A stretch of 53,048 nt of DNA from Butyrivibrio sp. (GTDB taxonomy: Bacteria; Bacillota; Clostridia; Lachnospirales; Lachnospiraceae): assembly GCA_024690485.1 (NCBI GenBank), contig JAILPB010000012.1, forward strand, positions 1 to 53,048. The letters are read 5' to 3'. Each line of letters begins with the position of its first letter. The stretch's first letter is position 1. Positions 8,552-53,048 of the stretch are shown here, in pieces. The position numbers and the translations under genes were made by a program. The notes beneath the pieces are model-generated. The model did not search any database. It had not been told where the DNA came from and saw nothing but the letters and a program-made list of their open reading frames with translations.

Positions 8552-9181
8552 ATGAAATATTGTACAAATTGTGGGGAGAGCATGGAAGACAACGTTCTTG
8601 TTTGTCCTAAGTGCGGAACAGCAGTAGTAGCAGAGCAGACACCTGTAGCAGAGACACCTTCAGAGCCTCAGGCACCTCAGGCTCCTCAGATGGGAGCACC
8701 TGTAGTTGGCGGTCCTGCACCTCAGTGGCAGAATGGTCCTCAGGGAGCACCTCAGTGGCAGAACGGCCCTCAGTGGCAGAATGGTCCTCAGGGAGTACCT
8801 TACGGTCAGCCGATGCCTCAGATGCCTTCACCTACAGACCACACAGCTGAGATGGAGCAGGAAGATATCGATGACAATAGAATTTTCGGTATAATTGTAT
8901 ACTTACTTGGTTTATTCGGTGTTCTTATTGGCATTATCGCTGCTAAGGATTCAAAGTATGTTAAGTTCCACGTAAAGCAGGAATTAAAGCTTCTTGTTAC
9001 TTTCCTTTTTGTTTACTTTATAAGCTTACTTCTTTGCTGGACATTCATTGTTCCGATCGCAGGTATCATTGCAGGTATCGTACTTGCTGTTCTTAAGATC
9101 ATCGCTATTGTAAATGCATGCTGCGGTAAGGCTAAGGAAGTTCCGATCATTAGCTCACTTAAGTTCCTTGGCAAGTATTGA
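8552..9181 (+). CDS. Zinc-ribbon membrane protein with DUF4870/Tic20-like domain
   Basis: A 209-residue protein of unknown job. An N-terminal C4 zinc ribbon (CTNCGESM, then CPKCG) is followed by a proline/glutamine-rich linker (about 25-95) with repeated PQWQNGPQ units, then three membrane helices (about 115-135, 148-170, 175-192). The motif KYVKFHVKQELKLLV between the first two helices is like DUF4870/Tic20-related proteins. The start is set by GGAGGA 8 nt before the ATG; an upstream TTG overlaps the ribosome binding site and is not used. Similar zinc-ribbon plus small membrane domain proteins are common in Lachnospiraceae. A hairpin terminator follows. Confidence 0.75.
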   Translation: MKYCTNCGESMEDNVLVCPKCGTAVVAEQTPVAETPSEPQAPQAPQMGAPVVGGPAPQWQNGPQGAPQWQNGPQWQNGPQGVPYGQPMPQMPSPTDHTAEMEQEDIDDNRIFGIIVYLLGLFGVLIGIIAAKDSKYVKFHVKQELKLLVTFLFVYFISLLLCWTFIVPIAGIIAGIVLAVLKIIAIVNACCGKAKEVPIISSLKFLGKY

Positions 9182-9222
9182 TTTAGTTAATATATTTGTA
9201 AACATAGTATTAAATAAATCTG

Positions 9223-9258
9223 AAAAATCAGAGAGCGTCTCGTTCTCTGATTTTTTTT
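9223..9258 (+). terminator. Intrinsic terminator after zinc-ribbon membrane protein
   Basis: AAATCAGAGA pairs with TCTCTGATTT around a short GC-containing loop, followed by a run of T residues. Confidence 0.85.
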
Positions 9259-9271
9259 ATAAAAATTCGTG

Positions 9272-9277
9272 TATAAT
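9272..9277 (+). promoter_or_regulatory. Likely -10 element of the EAL-protein gene
   Basis: A perfect TATAAT lies just after the preceding terminator and 39 nt before the ATG of the EAL gene. No convincing -35 hexamer is present, because that position falls in the T-run of the terminator. Confidence 0.45.
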
Positions 9278-9315
9278 TGAACTATGGTTGCTGGGTAAAA
9301 AAACGGGGTGTAAAA

Positions 9316-11220
9316 ATGATAACACTTTTAAGCCTGGGAATAATGTTCATAGGCATCATTGCCATCCGTGCCAGAAAGATCAGTCACAGTGTTGGCAAGA
9401 TATGGATAGACTTGGAAATATGTGTCTCAGTCGCATACATTGGTTGTATGTGGCTTCTTGGTGTGGCTGATAAATTCTTTGAACTTAGCGAAGATACGAC
9501 CTATGTAGCCAGAGTTACAGCACTTAATCTTGCTCTTGTAACCTACATGCTTTGTGCATTTAAGATAACATTAGGACTTTCAAGGATTAGGGAAAAAGCA
9601 CCGCTTCTTTCTGTGCTGCCCTTTATTTTGCAGGCAAGCTTTCTGCTTGTTATTAATCCCATAAACCACGTTGCATATTATGAAGAAATAAAAGGACTTG
9701 TGACCATTGAAAAACTGGCATTTATGATCACAGCTTTTGCGGTTCACATGTTTTACTATGCATCAACAATATATCTTGCATGGAGACATAGAAGACGTCT
9801 TGGAAACGTTGCCACCTGGTGCTTTACTTTTATCGTAACGCTGGATTTTGCATTTATGGCTTTCCACCATCTGATAGATGATTTTTATTATATGGGAGCG
9901 GTCTTTGCAGCCTGCGTAACCTTCAATCTGATAATGCTCTATCTTGTTGATAATCCCATGGATTCCAAGACAGGAATCTATAAGAGAAAAGCCTTTTACA
10001 GAGCGGTTGAAGAGGTCCTTACCTTAAATCCTGATACGGATTATCAGCTGTGCCTTTTGGATATCCGAGATTTCCAGGATGTCAATGAACGTTTTGGTTT
10101 TGAGAGAGGCGATGATATCCTTATGAGAGTTGCTCAGGCTATGAGAAAGAGCTTTTCATGGGATGTTGAGCTGGGATACCTTGGAGAAGATAACTTTGTG
10201 GGACTTTTCCCCGATGGAAGATACTGGATGCTTGCAAGCAAGCTCTCCCTTGATGACATGTATCCCGGAGAAGGCATGGACTACGCAATGTCTCTGTATG
10301 CCGGCATATATAAAATAAAAGACAGAACCATGAATCCTATTCTTATGTGTGACAGAGCAAGGTTCGCCATGGACTCCATAAGATATGATTATGAGAAGCA
10401 CGAGTGCGTATATGATTCAGCTCAGGATCACAAGTTTGAAATGCAGGCATATATGCTTCATAACTGTGACAGAGCTATTCATGAGCACAACTTTGTTCCA
10501 TATTTCCAGCCGATATATGACGCCAAGACCAAGAAAATATGCAGTGCTGAGGCACTGGTAAGGTGGAAAGATAAGCAGTACGGACTTATCAGTCCCGGTG
10601 ATTTTATTCCGCTTTTTGAAAAGAACGGATTTGTTACAAAGCTTGATCTGTACGTGTGGGAAGAGGTTTGTAGTCAGATCTCACATTGGAGAAAAGAGGG
10701 AATACTGGTTCCTCCGGTATCAGTTAATATTTCCAGAAAAGACCTCCAGATGGATAATCTCTATGAGATAATTCTTGATCTTATTAAGAAATATAACCTG
10801 TCACCACTTGATGTGAAGCTTGAAATAACAGAGAGTGCCTTTGTTGCTGAAAATGAGAGATATTTTAAGACTGTGGATACGTTGAAAGAGGTGGGCTTCA
10901 GAATCCTCATGGATGACTTTGGAAGCGGCTATTCAAGCCTTAATACCTTCAAGGATGCACATGTGGATATCCTGAAGGCAGACATGCGATTCATGGACGG
11001 CATCGAGAGCTCAGACAAGGGTAAGATAGTCATAAATACAATCGTTGATATGGCAAAGAAACTGGATATACCAATGGTAGTTGAGGGCGTAGAAACAGAA
11101 GGGCAGTACGAATTCCTAAGAGATATAGGATGCCAGATGATCCAGGGATATTACTTCTCAAGACCTGTTCCTCCTGAAGAATTCAGGAATATGATAAAAG
11201 CTCCGGATGCTGTGGTTTAG
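9316..11220 (+). CDS. Membrane cyclic-di-GMP phosphodiesterase (degenerate GGDEF plus EAL)
   Basis: A 634-residue sensor. About seven N-terminal membrane helices (1-210) are followed by a GGDEF-like domain (about 215-375) and an EAL domain (about 395-630). The GGDEF site reads GEDNF at 290-294, so cyclase activity is unlikely. The EAL domain keeps its signature residues: AEALVRW, NISRKDL, EITES, DDFGSG, EGVETEGQ and QGYYFSRP. It should therefore hydrolyse cyclic-di-GMP, perhaps with the GGDEF half as a regulatory module. The start ATG at 9316 is preferred over an upstream TTG because GGGGTG lies just before it. The gene is monocistronic, flanked by two terminators. Confidence 0.9.
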   Translation: MITLLSLGIMFIGIIAIRARKISHSVGKIWIDLEICVSVAYIGCMWLLGVADKFFELSEDTTYVARVTALNLALVTYMLCAFKITLGLSRIREKAPLLSVLPFILQASFLLVINPINHVAYYEEIKGLVTIEKLAFMITAFAVHMFYYASTIYLAWRHRRRLGNVATWCFTFIVTLDFAFMAFHHLIDDFYYMGAVFAACVTFNLIMLYLVDNPMDSKTGIYKRKAFYRAVEEVLTLNPDTDYQLCLLDIRDFQDVNERFGFERGDDILMRVAQAMRKSFSWDVELGYLGEDNFVGLFPDGRYWMLASKLSLDDMYPGEGMDYAMSLYAGIYKIKDRTMNPILMCDRARFAMDSIRYDYEKHECVYDSAQDHKFEMQAYMLHNCDRAIHEHNFVPYFQPIYDAKTKKICSAEALVRWKDKQYGLISPGDFIPLFEKNGFVTKLDLYVWEEVCSQISHWRKEGILVPPVSVNISRKDLQMDNLYEIILDLIKKYNLSPLDVKLEITESAFVAENERYFKTVDTLKEVGFRILMDDFGSGYSSLNTFKDAHVDILKADMRFMDGIESSDKGKIVINTIVDMAKKLDIPMVVEGVETEGQYEFLRDIGCQMIQGYYFSRPVPPEEFRNMIKAPDAVV

Positions 11221-44935: not shown

Positions 44936-46459
44936 ATGAACCCGGAAACAAAAGAAAAATTAGACTACATAAAGAGCGTCCTTAAGGAGGCAAATAATTA
45001 CGCAATTGCTTGCAACGTTCTTGCATTTGATCAGGAGACTATCTGCCCCCCAAGGGGTATGCAGGCTCAGGGAGAGGCAAATGCTTATCTTGCAAACCAG
45101 TTGTTTAAGCTTGTAAAATCAGATGAATTTATTTCTGCTTCAGAGTATTTATATGAGCATATCGATGAGCTCGATGATCTGGACAAGGTCCTTGCAGATC
45201 AGTATCACAGAGATTATGTAAAAAATAAAAATATCACTCCGGAAAAGAATCTGGAGTTTACACTTGCGTTCAATCAGGGCTTTGTTGACTGGACAAAAGC
45301 CAGACAGAACTCAGACTTTTCAATGTTTGCTGATGCCCTGACTAAGGTAAGAGACGTATGTATTGAGAAGGTTAAATTAAGAGAACTTAGCGAAGAAGAT
45401 AAGAAGAGAGGCATATATAACCAGCTTGTTGGTGACTACGAGAGAGGCATCACCACAGAAGAGCTTGATAAGTGCTTTGAGCACTGCAAAGAGCGACTCA
45501 TTCCTCTTCTTAAGAAAATTCAGAATAGTAAAAAGAAGATCCGCACTGACTTCATGCACCGTGAAGTAAAGGAGTACCAGCAGGTAGAGATGGTTAAGTA
45601 TCTTCTGGATGTACTTCACTTCGACCAGGAGAGAGGCGCTTTCTCAACTTCCGAGCATCCTTTCACACACTGGGTAAGCCAGCATGATACCAGAATCACA
45701 ACTCACTATTATCCTACAGATTTTAGTGCCAGCATGTATTCAATAATCCACGAGAGTGGACATGCTTTATTTGAGATGCTGCAGCCAACCGAGGATTATG
45801 ATCACTATATTCAGGATGGTAAAACTCTTGGTATGCATGAGTCTGTTTCAAGAATGTATGAGAACAGGATTGGACGTTCAAGAAGCTTTGTAAAGCTGAT
45901 CTTCCCTAAAGCAAAAGAGATATTCAGCGATATCCTCTCAGACGTAACAGAGGAAGAGTTCTACGAAGCAATAAATGCTGTAAACCCTTCACTAATCAGA
46001 ACAGAGTCCGATGAATTTACATATACCTTCCACATCATAATCCGTTATGAGATAGAGAAGGAAATAATAGAAGGCGGTCTCGACATCGCAGATATTCCAA
46101 AGAGATGGAGAGAAAAATACGAGGAATACCTGGGAGTTTCACCAAAGACTGACAGAGAGGGCGTTCTTCAGGATGTACACTGGGCTACAGGCTTTGGATA
46201 CTTCCCTACATATTCCATGGGCAATATGTACAACGCAATGTATTACAACCGCATGAAAAATGAGATTGATATCGATAAATGTGTTGAGAACGGAGACTTA
46301 GATACTATTAACAACTGGATGAAGGACAACGTTTTTGCTAAGGCTAACAGACTTGCTCCTTCTGAATGGATAAAGGATATTACCGGAAGAGATTTTACTG
46401 CAGACGATTTCCTTGATTACCTTGAGGAGAAATATAGCAAAATCTATGAACTTAGTTGA
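44936..46459 (+). CDS. M32 family metallocarboxypeptidase
   Basis: A 507-residue thermostable-carboxypeptidase-1-like enzyme that trims C-terminal residues from peptides in the cytoplasm. The zinc motif HESGH is at 272-276 and the third ligand lies in GMHESVSRMYENR (E302). Other family signatures are LAFDQETICPP, DTRITTHYYPTDF and TDEFTYTFHIIIRYEIEK-like RTESDEFTYTFHI. AGGAGAAG precedes the ATG. The next gene (a histidine kinase) starts inside its last codons; whether they share a function or only a promoter is unknown. Confidence 0.92.
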   Translation: MNPETKEKLDYIKSVLKEANNYAIACNVLAFDQETICPPRGMQAQGEANAYLANQLFKLVKSDEFISASEYLYEHIDELDDLDKVLADQYHRDYVKNKNITPEKNLEFTLAFNQGFVDWTKARQNSDFSMFADALTKVRDVCIEKVKLRELSEEDKKRGIYNQLVGDYERGITTEELDKCFEHCKERLIPLLKKIQNSKKKIRTDFMHREVKEYQQVEMVKYLLDVLHFDQERGAFSTSEHPFTHWVSQHDTRITTHYYPTDFSASMYSIIHESGHALFEMLQPTEDYDHYIQDGKTLGMHESVSRMYENRIGRSRSFVKLIFPKAKEIFSDILSDVTEEEFYEAINAVNPSLIRTESDEFTYTFHIIIRYEIEKEIIEGGLDIADIPKRWREKYEEYLGVSPKTDREGVLQDVHWATGFGYFPTYSMGNMYNAMYYNRMKNEIDIDKCVENGDLDTINNWMKDNVFAKANRLAPSEWIKDITGRDFTADDFLDYLEEKYSKIYELS

Positions 46460-48056
46460 TGGGAGAATTTTTAAAAACAGAAAGGTGTGGCTCGTATTAG
46501 GAGTCATAATGATGCTTTTCTCATTGTTTATGGGTGCGGTGTCCATAGCTTACAGATGGGCATTTATTTGGGTGCTGCTTTTTACCTTTCTATTTCTTAG
46601 CTTTCTTGTTTTTTGTACTGGAGTTTACATCGAAGGACTTAGACACAGCGAAGTTGAGAAGATGAAGAAGGAAAGGGATACGGCTATAAAAGATTCTGAA
46701 ATGCGACTGCAGTATCTTGCAAATATGGCGCATGAGATACGAACTCCCATAAATGCTATTATCGGTTATGACGAGCTTATTCTTCGTGAATACAATGATC
46801 CTGCACTTAGACAGTATGCAGGAAATATCAGGGCTGCAAGCAATTCACTACTTGCGATCGTCAACGATTCCCTTGATTATTCCAGAATGGTTGCGGGAAA
46901 AATGGAACTTCTTCCTGCAGAATATGATCTGGGAATTGTTCTTGAAGAAATCATAAGTATGATCCGTCCAAGGATTCTTGCAAAAGGTCTTGAGATGAAA
47001 TGCTTTGTGAACAAGGATATGCCACATATTCTATACGGAGATTCCGACAGACTAAAGCAGTGTATGATAAACATTCTCACCAATGCTGTTAAGTATACAG
47101 AGGAAGGAGAGATAGTTTTATCTGTTGATTACAAGCAGCTTTTCAATGATTCAGCCACAGGGAAAAAAGAAATTGTTCTTATGGTTTCCGTTAGAGACAC
47201 CGGTATCGGTATCAAGGAGGAAGACCTTAAGCGCCTGTACAGCCCCTTCGAGAGAATTGATGAAGTCAAGATAAAGGCTGTAGAGGGTAGCGGACTAGGT
47301 ATATCCATTGTAAAGAAAATTCTGGCTCTCATGAATTCCAAGCTGGAAGTTGAGAGTGTTTACGGCGAAGGAAGTAACTTCCACTTTGAAGTTAAGCAGG
47401 AAGTTATGAGAATGGACCCTCTTGGTAATTTCGAGAAGATGTACGCCCAGAACCTTGTAAATGAGAATTCTTACAGAAATAAGTTCCAGGCACCGGATGC
47501 AAGAATACTTGTGGTGGACGATGCGGACATGAACCTGTCTGTTATCGAGGGACTTTTAAAAGAAACAAGAATACAGATAGATTCTGCTCTTAGCGCTGCT
47601 ACGGGGCTGGAACTTGCTTCTACAAACGAATACGACATTATCTTCATAGACCTTAGAATGTCCGGAATGAACGGTGGAGAGATGGTTAATATCATCCATG
47701 GAAGAAGCGGAGAGGAAAAGGAAGAAAAAAGAAGGCGCGATCGTTTTAATAAAAAGCAGGATAAGGACAGAAAGAAACTTAAGAATGAAAAAACGCCCTG
47801 CATAGCACTTACTGCAGGAGCGCTTCAGGAAGTTCAGAGCGAATATGTAAAGCTTGGTTTTGCTGATTATCTGCTAAAGCCAATAGTATATAAGGAACTG
47901 GAACTGGTTCTTTTACATTTTCTGCCTGAGGAAAAAGTTAATCTCCTTTCAGACAGAAGAAAGCACAACAGGGACAAGGATGCGCCCACATTGATGTCTA
48001 CTGATAAGCTGCGTGAAGCTGTGGGTATATTAAAAAACAGGGAAGCTAGGATATAG
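46446..48056 (+). CDS. Hybrid histidine kinase (HisKA-HATPase-receiver)
   Basis: A 536-residue membrane kinase. Two helices (13-35, 38-62) are followed by the DHp domain with phospho-acceptor H96 in MAHEIRTPINA, the ATPase with the N-box NILTNAVKYTEE, RDTGIGI and GSGLGISIVKK, then a receiver (about 352-490) with D358-D359, acceptor D402 and K478. The receiver has an extra stretch of about 30 highly charged residues (418-450, EEKEEKRRRDRFNKKQDKDR) before the fourth strand. It is the only protein of this operon with an ATPase domain, and may be the phosphate source for the others. The ATG lies within the carboxypeptidase gene, with a poorly spaced GAGGAG. Confidence 0.85.
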   Translation: MNLVDGRIFKNRKVWLVLGVIMMLFSLFMGAVSIAYRWAFIWVLLFTFLFLSFLVFCTGVYIEGLRHSEVEKMKKERDTAIKDSEMRLQYLANMAHEIRTPINAIIGYDELILREYNDPALRQYAGNIRAASNSLLAIVNDSLDYSRMVAGKMELLPAEYDLGIVLEEIISMIRPRILAKGLEMKCFVNKDMPHILYGDSDRLKQCMINILTNAVKYTEEGEIVLSVDYKQLFNDSATGKKEIVLMVSVRDTGIGIKEEDLKRLYSPFERIDEVKIKAVEGSGLGISIVKKILALMNSKLEVESVYGEGSNFHFEVKQEVMRMDPLGNFEKMYAQNLVNENSYRNKFQAPDARILVVDDADMNLSVIEGLLKETRIQIDSALSAATGLELASTNEYDIIFIDLRMSGMNGGEMVNIIHGRSGEEKEEKRRRDRFNKKQDKDRKKLKNEKTPCIALTAGALQEVQSEYVKLGFADYLLKPIVYKELELVLLHFLPEEKVNLLSDRRKHNRDKDAPTLMSTDKLREAVGILKNREARI

Positions 48057-48097
48057 ATCATGGAGGAGAAGCCGGGCAAAGGCAATGAGGGGTTATT

Positions 48098-49909
48098 GTG
48101 GAACTGAAGTATAACATTTATCTTGAGGCTGCAGTTATACCGATCGATATAATACTGTGCGTCTTTCTTAAACTTAAATATACAGAAAAAACCAGAGTTA
48201 ACAAGGAATTCAGGCATCTGGCTTATTTGATTGCTGTCTCAACAATAATTGACGTTGTTGATGCAATCATTATTTCCATGGGCCCGGAGATGCCACTGAT
48301 AATCAAGTATCTGGCAAACATCATAGATTATGTAAGTGCCACAATTACATCCTATCAGTTTGTCCACTATGTAATGGCCTTTGTTGGTAGCAGATGGAAA
48401 GAGAGCACAGGTGCGTACATAAACAGGATTCTTCTTGTAATCTATCTCCTTATCATTGTTACAAATCCCATAACAGGAATAATCTTTGCTTATTCACCTA
48501 TGGGCCATTATATTGCAGGTCCTCTTTTTATGATGATCGTATATGCATACCCGTTCTATTATATCTTGTACGGCGGCGTGTTTATCCTAAGTCATAACGA
48601 GAGCTATTCCAAGCAGATGAAGCATGCTCTGGTGGCAACTTTCTTTTTTGTAATATTTTTCTATCTGTTACAGATGCTTTACGTAAATGAGCTTCTGGTT
48701 TCATTCTTTGTGGCATCAGTATCACTTCTTGTTTTGTATCTTACATTGGAGACGCCGGATTACACCAAGCTTATGAAAACTTTAGATGAGCTCTCGGTAT
48801 CACGAAAAGAGCTGGAGGCTTCAAGTATAAGGGCTGCGGAGATGAGCCGTACAAAGAGCAGATTCCTTGCTCAGATGTCCAATGAGATCAGAACTCCCGT
48901 AAATGCCATAATGGGTTATAGTAACCTTATTCTTGCAGACAGCAAGGAGGATACCTCCAGAGAATATGCCCAGAGAGTAAAAATCTCTGCAAAGAGACTG
49001 CTTACTTTCTTTGAAAACGTTTTAAATTACGTATCTGATGAAGATGATGAGAACGGTCCAAGGCGACTTCCTTCAATGGCAGAGCTTGTGGATCAGACTG
49101 AAAATACTTTTGATAATGAGAGAGATACAACAGCAGAGCACAAGGCCATAAGCGGAGCGGCTCAGATAAGGGTTTTGGTGGTTGATGATGCGGATCTTAA
49201 TATAGACCTTCTTGTCAGAATTCTTCGTCCCATAGGCTTTACTGTGGATACTGCGAACAACGGAAAACAGGCAATTATGCAGGTTAGGAAATTCAGATAT
49301 GATCTTATTTTTATGGATCATCTGATGCCTATTATGGACGGCGTAGAGGCGCTAAAGCATCTCCGCGAAGAAAACCTTTGCGACGATACACCTATCGTAA
49401 TGCTTACGGCAAATGCCGTAGCCGGTGAGGAAGAAAAGTATAGGAAGATGGGATTTGCGGCCTATGTTACAAAACCGTTTACTGAGGATTCCATCAGAGA
49501 TATCCTGAAAAAATTCCTGCCTATTACAGAACAGCAGTGGCAGGGAGAGGTTGCCATAAGTGAGTGGGAGGCTCTTCAGGAAAAACTTCCCACAGTCAGA
49601 GTTGCAGATGCAAGAGAATATCTGCTTCACAGCATTAAGGCCTACAAGAATATTTTGAAGACCTTTGCGGAAGTGGACATGAGCACTGAATTTCTGGCAG
49701 CTATAAGGCGCGGAGATTATATTAAGACCATGGCGATCATAACTTCAGAACATGATGACGCAGTACTTATCGGTGCAGAGAGCCTTGCGAATATGTCAGA
49801 GAGACTTGAGTCTTTGTGCAGACGAGGCGAATATGAACTTTTAAGAGAGAGAACGGGAGCATATTTTGCAGAGAGAAATATGCTTTCAGAACAGATAAAG
49901 GAACTTTAA
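48098..49909 (+). CDS. Membrane DHp-like/receiver/HPt-like protein without ATPase, phospho-histidines lost
   Basis: A 603-residue protein starting at GTG after GAGGGG. Six or seven N-terminal helices (about 10-215) end in TLETPDY. A short coiled coil leads to a DHp-like helix pair (about 250-312) whose H-box reads MSNEIRTPVNA: the histidine is Asn262. No HATPase domain follows. A receiver (about 357-475) is intact (D363-D364, D407 in IFMDHLMP, K in VTKPF). The C-terminal HPt-like helical domain aligns to others at IGAESL, but the phospho-histidine position is Thr (IITSEHD). It thus looks able to receive phosphate only on its receiver. It is a tandem paralogue of the gene at 50307. Confidence 0.82.
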   Translation: MELKYNIYLEAAVIPIDIILCVFLKLKYTEKTRVNKEFRHLAYLIAVSTIIDVVDAIIISMGPEMPLIIKYLANIIDYVSATITSYQFVHYVMAFVGSRWKESTGAYINRILLVIYLLIIVTNPITGIIFAYSPMGHYIAGPLFMMIVYAYPFYYILYGGVFILSHNESYSKQMKHALVATFFFVIFFYLLQMLYVNELLVSFFVASVSLLVLYLTLETPDYTKLMKTLDELSVSRKELEASSIRAAEMSRTKSRFLAQMSNEIRTPVNAIMGYSNLILADSKEDTSREYAQRVKISAKRLLTFFENVLNYVSDEDDENGPRRLPSMAELVDQTENTFDNERDTTAEHKAISGAAQIRVLVVDDADLNIDLLVRILRPIGFTVDTANNGKQAIMQVRKFRYDLIFMDHLMPIMDGVEALKHLREENLCDDTPIVMLTANAVAGEEEKYRKMGFAAYVTKPFTEDSIRDILKKFLPITEQQWQGEVAISEWEALQEKLPTVRVADAREYLLHSIKAYKNILKTFAEVDMSTEFLAAIRRGDYIKTMAIITSEHDDAVLIGAESLANMSERLESLCRRGEYELLRERTGAYFAERNMLSEQIKEL

Positions 49910-49929
49910 CTAAAAACCAAGGGGGCTTT

Positions 49930-50310
49930 ATGAGTAAGAAAATACTTATAGCTGAGGATTCTGAGGTAGGAATAGTATATCTTAAGGAGCTTTTTGAAAA
50001 GATAGAGGATGTCTCCTGCGACTATGCAAAAAGCTTTGATGATGCAGTTTCATGCTGCAAAGAAAATGAGTATGACCTTTTCCTTATAGACTACTTCATG
50101 CCTGACGGAACGGGAGATGCACTACTTACCATGCTAAGAAATATTCCTGAGCATAACAAGGAAACAAATGCAGTGGTCATGGGCTCGCCCTCTGATTTTA
50201 CTGAAGAAGGAATGCTCTCAAAATATGGTTTTTCAAATTATATTGAAAAGCCTGTTAAATTCAACATGCTTATGGGAGTTTTGACATTATATGCGGGGTA
50301 TGGAAGATGA
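49930..50310 (+). CDS. Stand-alone response-regulator receiver
   Basis: A 126-residue single-domain receiver (CheY-like). Acidic pair E9-D10 (AEDSE), phospho-acceptor D54 (LIDYFMPDG) and K107 (IEKPV) are present; the usual Ser/Thr lies in a drifted VMGSPSD. There is no output domain. It sits 20 nt after the preceding gene and its TGA overlaps the next ATG (ATGA). It may shuttle phosphate between the kinase and the HPt of the next protein. Confidence 0.85.
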   Translation: MSKKILIAEDSEVGIVYLKELFEKIEDVSCDYAKSFDDAVSCCKENEYDLFLIDYFMPDGTGDALLTMLRNIPEHNKETNAVVMGSPSDFTEEGMLSKYGFSNYIEKPVKFNMLMGVLTLYAGYGR

Positions 50311-52820
50311 TTTATGATTTAAACATTTCTTACGAAATGGCAGCAGTAGTCTTTGATGTGGTACTGTGCTTTTTTGTAAAACTGATATATACGGATGAGA
50401 CAAAGACGTCAAGGGCATTTAAAACCTTTGCATTTGTCTTTACCGTTGCATGCATTTTGGACCTTGCAACAATTGTCCTGATGCAACTTGAAGAGAGAAT
50501 GGCTGTGATTGGTCATTACGTGCTTCATTCCCTGAACATTCTGTCAGCATCTCTGGCAGCAGCAGCCTATGCAGATTATGTTGTCACCTGTGCAGGCGAT
50601 GATGAGAGAAACGAGCTTTTAGGAAAAATCAGTATCGCCGTAATGATCATCGAGATAGTTCTCCTTGTTCAGAACGTCTTTACAGGTAACGTTTTCTTCT
50701 ACAGTGAAATGGCAGGATACAGTCACGGCATGCTGTTCCTTGCATGTACTGTGGTAATACCCTGCTACTTCATTATCCTGGCATCGGGATATATTATCGT
50801 GAATTTCAGAAAGTACAACGCAAGACAGTTCTTTAGTATTGTCTTTGCAACCATAGTAGTTATCTCAATTTATCTTGCACAGATGCTGTTTTTCCCGAAT
50901 CTTAACCTGATTTATTTTGCAGCATCCGTTGGCATGTTGATACTGTTCTTTACCTTGGAGACCCCTGACTACAACAGACTTGAGAAAACCATCGTTCAGC
51001 TTGAAAAAGCGGAGAAACAGGCTGTTGATGCCATGAGAAGGGCTGAGGAAGCAAATGATGAAAAGAGCGAATTCCTATCTCAGATGTCCCATGAAATAAG
51101 AACTCCTATCAACTCAATTCTTGGTTTTGACAACCTGATCCTTGAAAATACAAGGGAAGCAAAAACCTCAGAATATGCCGCAAGAATCAAGGGCGCAGGA
51201 GAAAATCTTCTGGCATTTTTCAACAACCTCTTAAATGTTATCGCCCAGAACCCCGGCGAAGACATAGATGTGAAGACCCTTTTCGATTATTCGGCACTTA
51301 TAGAAAATGATAATGAAGAGGTTCTGGTTCCCATAATGCCAAGTGCAAGACTGCTGGTGGTTGATGACAATGCCATGAACGTGGACCTTCTTCTCAAGAT
51401 TTTAAGCAGATGTAAGGCTCAGGTAGATACTGCAGAAGATGGACAGAAGGCTCTTATGAAGCTTAGGAAAAAAGAATACGATCTGGTAATCATGGATCAT
51501 ATGATGCCTATTATGGACGGCGTTGAGACCTTAAGCATAATGAGAGAAGAAAGACTTAGTAAGGATGCTCCTGTTGTAATGCTTACGGCTGGCGGCCTTC
51601 GCGGAGATGAGGAGAGATTCAAGGAACTTGGATTTGATGCATATCTATCAAAACCTGTTGTGGCTAATACTCTCTATGAACTATTGGGAGACCTTGTGCC
51701 ATCAGAACTTATAAGCGAGAGAATATCCCTTGAGCATATTTTCTATAACGAGAATAAAGCTGCAAGAGGCATGGAATCCGAGGCAGCTCAAAACGGAAAT
51801 GCAGAGACCAAGATAGTAAAGAGAAGCCTGTCTCAAATCTTCGAAAACCTTGATACGGTATCAGGCCTTAACTACTGCATGGGAGATGAGGAGTTTTACA
51901 TATCCCAGCTGCAGATGTTTGTTGACAGCAAAAAGGGCGATGAGCTTCAGAGCTTTGTTGATGAAAAGGATTGGAATGCATACCATATAGCAGTTCATTC
52001 GCTTAAAAGTACAGCGAAGACTATCGGCGCAAATGAGATTTCAGGGGAAGCCCTTGATATTGAAAACTCAATAAAAGAAGGTGACACGGATTCTGTAATA
52101 AAAAACCATCCGCTTCTTAAAGCCCACTATGAGGACCTCTGTGAAAAAATGGCCAAAGGACTTGAGGAATATCATAGCGGAGTACAGGTTGCTACCGGCG
52201 GTGAAGAAACTCAGGCTATGGCAACAGCTTCCGAAAAATACAGTGGAAATTCTGTATCGGCACAGATTCTTACTGCCCTTGCAGGAACAGTTGATTCCAG
52301 AGATATTAATAATCCCGGAAGGTCCATGAGAGTTGCAAAGTACTCAATGGAGATAGCAAGAAGACTTGGAAAATCAGATTCAGAGCAGCAGGATATTTAC
52401 TACATGGGACTTGTACATGATATTGGTAAGCTGGTAATACCTGAGAAAATCCTGAGAAAGCCTGACAGACTTACAGCTGAGGAATCTGAAATTGTAAGAC
52501 AGCATCCTGTTATCGGATATGAGATTTTAAGGAATGTATCGGAGATGCCGGGACTTGCAACAGGTGCAAGATGGCATCATGAAAGATATGACGGAAGCGG
52601 ATATCCCGACGGGCTTATGGGAGATGAGATACCGCTTGAAGCAAGGATTATCGGTATTGCAGATGCATACGAAGCCATGACTTCACCAAGATCCTATGCA
52701 AGTGTAATGCCACCTGCCCGCATAATAAAAGAACTGGAGAAAAACCGTGGTGTACAGTTTGATCCAGCTCTTGTAGATATTCTTGTTTCCATGATCCAGG
52801 AGGATGCAGGAACAGCTTGA
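50307..52820 (+). CDS. Membrane DHp/receiver/HPt/HD-GYP phosphodiesterase without kinase ATPase domain
   Basis: An 837-residue multidomain protein: about seven helices (10-215, ending FTLETPDY), coiled coil (225-250), DHp (about 253-312) with intact H262 in MSHEIRTPINS, receiver (about 347-465; D353-D354, D397, K449), HPt (about 510-615) with H564 in VHSLKSTAKTIGA, and HD-GYP (about 650-835) with HDIGK at 704-708 and HHERYDGSGYP at 757-767. No HATPase domain lies between DHp and receiver, where a complete kinase would have one. The HD-GYP site is intact, so it should hydrolyse cyclic-di-GMP under phosphorelay control from another kinase. Confidence 0.87.
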   Translation: MIYDLNISYEMAAVVFDVVLCFFVKLIYTDETKTSRAFKTFAFVFTVACILDLATIVLMQLEERMAVIGHYVLHSLNILSASLAAAAYADYVVTCAGDDERNELLGKISIAVMIIEIVLLVQNVFTGNVFFYSEMAGYSHGMLFLACTVVIPCYFIILASGYIIVNFRKYNARQFFSIVFATIVVISIYLAQMLFFPNLNLIYFAASVGMLILFFTLETPDYNRLEKTIVQLEKAEKQAVDAMRRAEEANDEKSEFLSQMSHEIRTPINSILGFDNLILENTREAKTSEYAARIKGAGENLLAFFNNLLNVIAQNPGEDIDVKTLFDYSALIENDNEEVLVPIMPSARLLVVDDNAMNVDLLLKILSRCKAQVDTAEDGQKALMKLRKKEYDLVIMDHMMPIMDGVETLSIMREERLSKDAPVVMLTAGGLRGDEERFKELGFDAYLSKPVVANTLYELLGDLVPSELISERISLEHIFYNENKAARGMESEAAQNGNAETKIVKRSLSQIFENLDTVSGLNYCMGDEEFYISQLQMFVDSKKGDELQSFVDEKDWNAYHIAVHSLKSTAKTIGANEISGEALDIENSIKEGDTDSVIKNHPLLKAHYEDLCEKMAKGLEEYHSGVQVATGGEETQAMATASEKYSGNSVSAQILTALAGTVDSRDINNPGRSMRVAKYSMEIARRLGKSDSEQQDIYYMGLVHDIGKLVIPEKILRKPDRLTAEESEIVRQHPVIGYEILRNVSEMPGLATGARWHHERYDGSGYPDGLMGDEIPLEARIIGIADAYEAMTSPRSYASVMPPARIIKELEKNRGVQFDPALVDILVSMIQEDAGTA

Positions 52821-53048
52821 TTATTTAAGTGCATATTCAGTAAGAAGGCGCGATGCTTCACGGAGGCTTTCGCGCCTTATGTGTACACACTCGCCGTCTT
52901 TCATTTCAAATACCTGAAGGTCTTTATCCACATTCTTAACGTGGGCGATGTTTACAAGATAGCTCTTGTGACATCTCATAAAGGTATCATCAGGAGTCTG
53001 GGCTTCAATGTCATCAAGTTTTCCGGTCATCTGAAGAGTAGCGCCGTT
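52821..53048 (-). CDS. LytTR DNA-binding domain protein (5' part cut by window edge)
   Basis: The last 75 codons of a gene reading left across the right edge. The sequence FMRCHKSYLVNIAHVKNV and the closing SLREASRLLTEYAL are the C-terminal half of a LytTR DNA-binding domain. An internal ATG at 53030 is not the start, because the frame stays open to the edge with LytTR-like sequence. The stop abuts the HD-GYP stop with no gap. A LytTR response regulator next to the phosphorelay could be part of it, but the receiver part lies outside the window. Confidence 0.8.
   Translation of the reverse strand, partial: NGATLQMTGKLDDIEAQTPDDTFMRCHKSYLVNIAHVKNVDKDLQVFEMKDGECVHIRRESLREASRLLTEYALK

Follow-up and report, generated by a model that had tools for sequence, protein, structure and literature searches.

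The window studied here, the whole stretch of 53,048 nucleotides of contig JAILPB010000012.1 (assembly GCA_024690485.1) from Butyrivibrio sp., contains four consecutive open frames on the + strand, P1, P2, P3 and P4, and only P1 carries the catalytic and ATP-binding (CA) domain of a histidine kinase. P2 and P4 have predicted membrane sensors and dimerization and histidine phosphotransfer (DHp) hairpins that lead directly into a receiver (REC). This arrangement points to separate proteins for sensing and for kinase work. With moderate confidence we propose a division of labour in which P1 would be the engine and P2 and P4 its sensor and receiver partners, with P2 acting as a brake and P4 giving a cyclic di-GMP (c-di-GMP) output. 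P1 is the sole visible phosphoryl source in the operon, whose parts are the following:

46446..48056, + strand: P1, hybrid histidine kinase of 536 aa (open frame and Pfam)
48098..49909, + strand: P2, 603 aa with a GTG start; seven predicted N-terminal helices, DHp-like hairpin, REC and a bundle like a histidine phosphotransfer (Hpt) domain; no CA
49930..50310, + strand: P3, stand-alone receiver of 126 aa (Pfam)
50307..52820, + strand: P4, 837 aa; seven predicted N-terminal helices, DHp, REC, Hpt and HD-GYP; no CA
52236..52817, + strand: HD-GYP output domain of P4 (alignment and residue columns)

The observed part comprises domain content, loss and retention of residues, conservation and synteny, and residue columns were compared over 12 loci (the window, L057-L066 and L182). 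With Pfam, P1 matched HisKA (59.1 bits), HATPase_c (82.6 bits) and Response_reg (58.9 bits), P2 matched HisKA (46.7 bits) and Response_reg (88.5 bits), P3 matched Response_reg (50.6 bits), and P4 matched HisKA (39.9 bits), Response_reg (78.4 bits), Hpt (25.3 bits) and HD_5 (125.2 bits). No match of P2 or P4 to a HATPase family was found by Pfam at E <= 1, in a search where the HMMER filters discard the majority of matches with E above 0.1. P1 was then used as the seed of a CA profile, which was extended over the fetched loci and run unfiltered on 12 orthologues each of P1, P2 and P4; it matched every P1 orthologue (194.7-201.6 bits) and none of the 24 P2 and P4 orthologues at E <= 10. The profile also flags the decayed CA domain of a protein in L185, absent from the Pfam output, although this flag is not an independent control, because the profile already included that region as present in L101, from the same genome, and in the relative L110. 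The HATPase_c domain that defines a histidine kinase is therefore lacking in P2 and P4, and a diverged copy hidden in either protein, which had been named beforehand as the finding that would overturn the prediction, was looked for by both methods and not found. From the acceptor site to the start motif of REC there are 95-96 residues in P2 (12/12) and 86 in P4 (11/11 measured, the window copy being left out of the count because the regular expression missed it), versus 258 in the window P1, and the gap in P2 and P4 is too small to hold a CA domain. One complete hybrid kinase and two ATPase-less proteins passing straight from DHp to receiver, as proposed in the sequence-only reading that preceded this work, are in this way confirmed.

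The conservation of the operon was also studied. Orthologues of P2 (57-73% identity) were found in 12 of 79 genomes of the genus, own genome included (10 of the 47 of good quality), and the order P1-P2-P3-P4 is kept in all 12 P2-bearing loci (10 relatives, L182 and the window), supporting that it is not due to chance and answering the check on relatives that had been set in advance. The seven named loci matching the operon belong to Butyrivibrio (L103-L109), a genus of Lachnospiraceae, which agrees with the family assumed in the sequence-only reading.

P1 is built from two transmembrane (TM) segments (around residues 16-57), a DHp with His96, HATPase_c and a receiver with Asp402. His96, the Glu at H+1, the Thr at H+4, Asn213 of the N-box, the G1 and G2 glycines and Asp402 are invariant (12/12), in such a manner that every locus has the residues that define a hybrid sensor histidine kinase (the HisKA His, the N, G1 and G2 boxes of HATPase_c and the REC Asp); in L057 the REC Lys is replaced by Arg and one acidic residue by Gly. 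No recognisable sensor was found in P1, which has almost no sequence between its two TM segments, and these segments are absent in 2 of the 11 copies examined. Its mean pairwise identity (11 loci) is 0.84 in DHp, 0.69 in CA, 0.58 in REC and 0.47 in the N-terminal TM part. A highly charged insert in its receiver, at around 47703-47795 between Asp402 and Lys478, varies among the orthologues and is absent from L059 and L063.

P2 carries Asn262 at the acceptor position in all 12 loci, hence no phospho-acceptor His in its DHp, and keeps the acidic residue at H+1 (Glu or Asp) and the Thr at H+4 (12/12), that is, the HE/DxxN/T phosphatase motif minus its His. Asp407 and Lys459 of its receiver are invariant (12/12). 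At the C-terminus, the acceptor column of the Hpt-like bundle holds Thr, Arg or Met and never His (12/12), as opposed to a true Hpt. The relationship of this end to the P4 Hpt was nevertheless clear by profile comparison with hhalign (96.1% probability, E 3.1e-9, 114 columns), and a profile made from P4 Hpt sequences only matched 11/11 P2 sequences (E 3e-11 to 0.002), so by these comparisons it is a decayed Hpt. Because of Asn262 and of the missing His in the Hpt-like end, P2 is, as judged from its residues, not a full relay link: it would undergo neither DHp phosphorylation at the usual site nor phosphate passage through its C-terminus. It can, in principle, serve as a receiver, a sink, a phosphatase-like partner or a scaffold. 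In P2, mean pairwise identity (11 loci) falls from 0.89 for DHp to 0.78 for REC, 0.62 for the Hpt-like end and 0.59 for the seven-transmembrane (7TM) part, and 47 of the 64 DHp columns are invariant (11 loci). Since its DHp is the best conserved domain despite having no acceptor His and no CA beside it, it has probably been retained for a role in contact or regulation; such conservation would be hard to explain unless this hairpin touches other signalling parts. The membrane sensors and DHp domains attributed to P2 and P4 at the outset are retained as seven predicted helices in each protein and as a DHp with its His in P4, whereas P2 has Asn at that site.

In P3, Asp54 and Lys107 are invariant (12/12), and the Thr/Ser switch position varies between Ser, His, Arg and Asn. 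In P4, the DHp His262, the Asp and Lys of REC and the Hpt His564 are invariant (12/12), so a helical bundle with an acceptor His is present. The same holds for His704, Asp705, Lys708, His733, His757, His758, Gly-Tyr-Pro 765-767 and Asp786 of its HD-GYP domain, which therefore has, in 12/12 loci, the HD dyad, the HH pair, the GYP motif and the six core metal ligands of this phosphodiesterase class. An intact active site had been claimed, and this holds in the six-ligand, binuclear-type sense: when aligned with PmGH (4mcw), P4 keeps six of the eight metal ligands and has Asn668 and Arg672 in place of E185 and H189. With Asn or Ser at 668 and Arg or Lys at 672 in 12/12, it falls outside the trinuclear (E/D-T-G) subgroup. 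RpfG also lacks the equivalents of E185 and H189, and passages of PMC4159591 consider a binuclear site more likely there. The enzyme end of P4 is likely, but not certain, to be active and probably destroys c-di-GMP. Of the solved structures, 5z7c, whose deposited name is 3'3'-cGAMP-specific phosphodiesterase 3, matches it best by sequence, and the substrate of P4 could be c-di-GMP or cyclic GMP-AMP (cGAMP). Mean pairwise identity in P4 (11 loci) is 0.85 in DHp, 0.85 in REC, 0.84 in HD-GYP, 0.60 in Hpt and 0.54 in the 7TM part. The initial domain reading was incomplete in that it had left out the P4 Hpt with His564, the Hpt-like end of P2 without His and the sensor-less nature of P1.

The lack of CA in P2 and P4, together with the loss of two His sites in P2, could also be expected if the operon were decaying and both proteins were pseudogene-like remnants of hybrid kinases. 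In the window, however, P2 and P4 are open frames with 57-64% identity to the other 10 rows of their alignments (A1 and A2), and the REC, Hpt and HD-GYP residues are invariant (12/12). This conservation largely refutes decay, which we regard as very improbable.

For the proposed division of labour, we infer the phosphotransfer steps, the direction of HD-GYP control and the contacts between proteins as follows. P1 would autophosphorylate His96 with its own CA domain, as its motifs indicate, and its phosphoryl groups would pass to its own receiver, to those of P2 and P4 and possibly to P3; P3 and the neighbouring LytTR regulator are further possible acceptors. The receiver, DHp His and Hpt His of P4 would form a local His-Asp relay setting HD-GYP activity and hence c-di-GMP breakdown, an output that fits the anatomy through the invariant Hpt His and HD-GYP core. 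In P2 the receiver Asp is the one phosphorylation site of the usual kind, and the protein may act as a sensor-controlled, non-phosphorylatable brake, either as a phosphate sink, as a DHp partner with a dephosphorylating or inhibiting effect, or as both, in the manner of RetS. According to passages of PMC5992135, RetS accepts phosphate on its REC2, acts as a phosphatase on GacS via its HExxT motif, with the Thr being required for this transmitter phosphatase activity, and inhibits GacS autophosphorylation. These passages show that a kinase can lose phosphate to, be dephosphorylated by and be inhibited by a partner that has no working ATPase. The idea that one kinase feeds several membrane receivers thus agrees with the anatomy and with the Asp and Lys of the P2 and P4 receivers, invariant in 12/12, except that P2 would not relay phosphate further.

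The presence of CA-less DHp-REC proteins in the rest of the family was then investigated with a profile of such proteins (A3) in 397 family genomes, own included, requiring a near full-length match. They were found in at least 13 other genomes, a lower bound because, among the matches listed, at most 7 candidates were scored per genome. Neighbourhoods were judged within stretches of 9-17 kb. In six genomes (G251, G498, G120, G232, G259 and G272) the CA-less protein lies immediately beside a protein of the DHp-CA type and in two (G472 and G466) it is clustered with kinases, which makes 8/13 with another kinase-type protein close by, one such neighbour being decayed; in G348 a contig end lies beside it. 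The CA-less proteins of G251 and G259 have the layout DHp-REC-Hpt-REC-HD-GYP, close to that of P4. More CA-less DHp-REC proteins lie near kinases in L119, L127, L128 and L153; in L170 a complete kinase lies upstream across around 700 bases, and no kinase was found near that of L177 within a short stretch.

Several observations weigh against the division of labour proposed for the window. No kinase gene lies beside the CA-less protein in 4 of the 13 family genomes (G118, G165, G478 and G273), within the stretch read. In L185 (G232; 8982-10445) and L110 (7092-8567) the protein at the P1 position has an acceptor Arg and a decayed CA (Pfam: L185); these proteins look dead and could hardly feed their CA-less neighbours with a DHp His. 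The Asn acceptor is not unique to P2: among the distinct DHp proteins compared, the acceptor column holds His in 186, Asn in 14 (12 of them P2), Arg in 2, Glu in 2, Asp in 2, Thr in 1 and a gap in 2, and Asn occurs also in L013, with CA, and in L170, without it. The contacts and phosphotransfer between P1, P2 and P4 are predictions from sequence, the missing His and CA weaken the phosphatase idea for P2, and two of the eight PmGH ligands are replaced in the HD-GYP of P4; in PmGH itself, the H189A change essentially abolished activity, as stated in passages of PMC4159591.

The CA-less proteins without a kinase beside them (4/13) and the dead-looking neighbours in L185 and L110 would be expected if P2 and P4 were independent homodimeric membrane receivers, with the DHp as a dimerisation stalk and phosphate coming from many kinases and not mainly from P1. 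A pure stalk, however, leaves the invariant P4 His262 (12/12) unexplained, as it does the rank of the DHp as the most conserved domain of P2 and its tie with REC in P4, and P1 and P4 are linked in 12/12 loci, so we find this alternative unlikely.

The retention of that His in a protein without its own CA can be accounted for by a mixed-dimer, or split, kinase, in which the CA of P1 would phosphorylate His262 in a P1-P4 heterodimer and the P4 sensor would gate its own phosphorylation. A complementary pair that would suit such a split was found in G272 (L221:5680-9640): directly after a CA-less DHp(His)-REC-Hpt protein comes one whose HATPase_c is intact (64.3 bits) and whose HisKA (43.9 bits) has Gln as acceptor. 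Of the cases encountered, this pair is the clearest candidate for a naturally split HisKA kinase. Similarly, a CA protein with Glu or Asp as acceptor lies beside a CA-less DHp(His)-REC protein in L115:6489-12255, L120:6483-12135 and L123:6510-12180 (Pfam: L120 only). In addition, passages of PMC3591291 name CheA3/CheA4 as a kinase of another type for which such a split is proven, and report that EnvZ domains function when separated. Nevertheless, the L221 pair is known from one genome, with no second copy of its CA protein among the 397 family genomes (E 1e-100), and the L115, L120 and L123 operons also contain a complete hybrid kinase. In the window, P1 retains its own DHp His, and P2 and P4 share their register from TM to DHp, with the acceptor 40 residues past ETPDY/F (12/12 each), whereas the distance from the last TM to the acceptor is 39 residues in P1 versus 45 in P2 and P4, with crude hydropathy ends. 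Dimers of the types P2-P2, P4-P4 or P2-P4 are therefore favoured. Direct phosphorylation between P1 and P4, plausible for the family in view of the L221 pair, appears less likely in the window operon because of the own His of P1 and the differing spacing, and we consider the mixed dimer rather improbable there. More broadly, and tentatively, the operon could represent a naturally divided HisKA-type kinase, with sensor, acceptor and ATPase split among its products through mixed DHp assemblies, the Asn-DHp protein P2 serving as an integral subunit that is not phosphorylatable, and P4 bearing a fused c-di-GMP phosphodiesterase. If so, the sister operons would be further stages, such as a pair of CA-only and acceptor-only proteins (L221) or a dead kinase with an acceptor (L185 and L110).

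Of the studied cases found, the nearest are RetS, RcsD and CheA3/CheA4. As in the operon, RetS-GacS of Pseudomonas aeruginosa includes a sensor with a kinase-type DHp and no working ATPase that acts on a complete kinase (PMC5992135); unlike P2 and P4, which have none, RetS keeps a degenerate HATPase, P2 has no DHp His, P4 has an HD-GYP output, and the window genes are adjacent in one row. In RcsC-RcsD-RcsB, likewise, a hybrid kinase works with a membrane-bound partner whose kinase domain is inactive and whose Hpt passes phosphate on (PMC13317618, preprint). P4 differs from that partner in having a DHp His, a receiver of its own and an enzymatic output, and the searches found no CA remnant in it; the Rcs authors argue against a 1:1 RcsC-RcsD heterodimer (PMC13317618, preprint). 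In CheA3/CheA4 of Rhodobacter sphaeroides, ATP-binding and acceptor functions are on separate proteins (PMC3591291), yet these are of the CheA and not the HisKA type, and P1 is complete alone. CA-less HisKA proteins were already known as a class, since 1556 of 42417 HisKA proteins in SMART have no HATPase, 711 of which were suggested as possible split bifunctional kinases (PMC3591291). Among the matches listed, no published account was found of the four-gene operon, of a CA-less DHp with an invariant Asn for His, or of a 7TM-DHp-REC-Hpt-HD-GYP chain. In RpfG the HD-GYP domain is fused to a receiver alone, whereas that of P4 is fused to a 7TM-DHp-REC-Hpt chain. RpfG and related REC-HD-GYP regulators resemble P4 in the two-component control of HD-GYP, with the same two metal ligands replaced in RpfG (PMC4159591). 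Most sensor kinases are described, in passages of PMC5992135, as homodimers with sensor, DHp and ATPase in one chain; a conserved operon with a separate sensor-less kinase and kinase-less sensors, one of them with its DHp fixed at Asn, would naturally test the DHp as a regulatory or heteromeric part without phosphorylation, and also how several membrane sensors share one ATP-using engine to set c-di-GMP.

Regarding the genomic context, the start of P1 was taken as 46446, the first ATG of its frame, which the list of open reading frames opens at an earlier TTG. P1 in this way begins within the M32 carboxypeptidase gene that lies upstream, 14 bases inside its 3' end, and there is a 4-base overlap between P3 and P4; the four genes are therefore likely to be transcribed jointly. 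No promoter or terminator exceeding shuffled sequences was found in the operon. In the genome (72.87% complete), 12 of the 15 HisKA matches lie within or adjoining a CA-bearing frame, and the remaining 3 are P2 and P4, both without CA, and L014, cut by a contig end. There are 25 GGDEF and 4 HD_5 matches (E <= 1e-5), which makes c-di-GMP signalling plausible. Beyond P4 lies the last feature of the window:

52821..53030, - strand: LytTR DNA-binding end of a convergent response regulator, a gene cut by the contig end (Pfam LytTR)

A convergent REC gene follows P4 in the loci of 10/10 relatives and in L182, and the two of the relatives run through Pfam have both REC and LytTR. A second DHp with Asn for His in the genome of the window belongs to a 521 aa protein with a CA domain (L226:1888-3453, contig C121). 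Finally, response regulators of 249-262 aa with a C-terminal receiver and around 125-145 N-terminal residues without an identified domain (L183:1356-2114, L221:9656-10444, L219:2834-3613 and L227:9959-10708) recur near these kinases.

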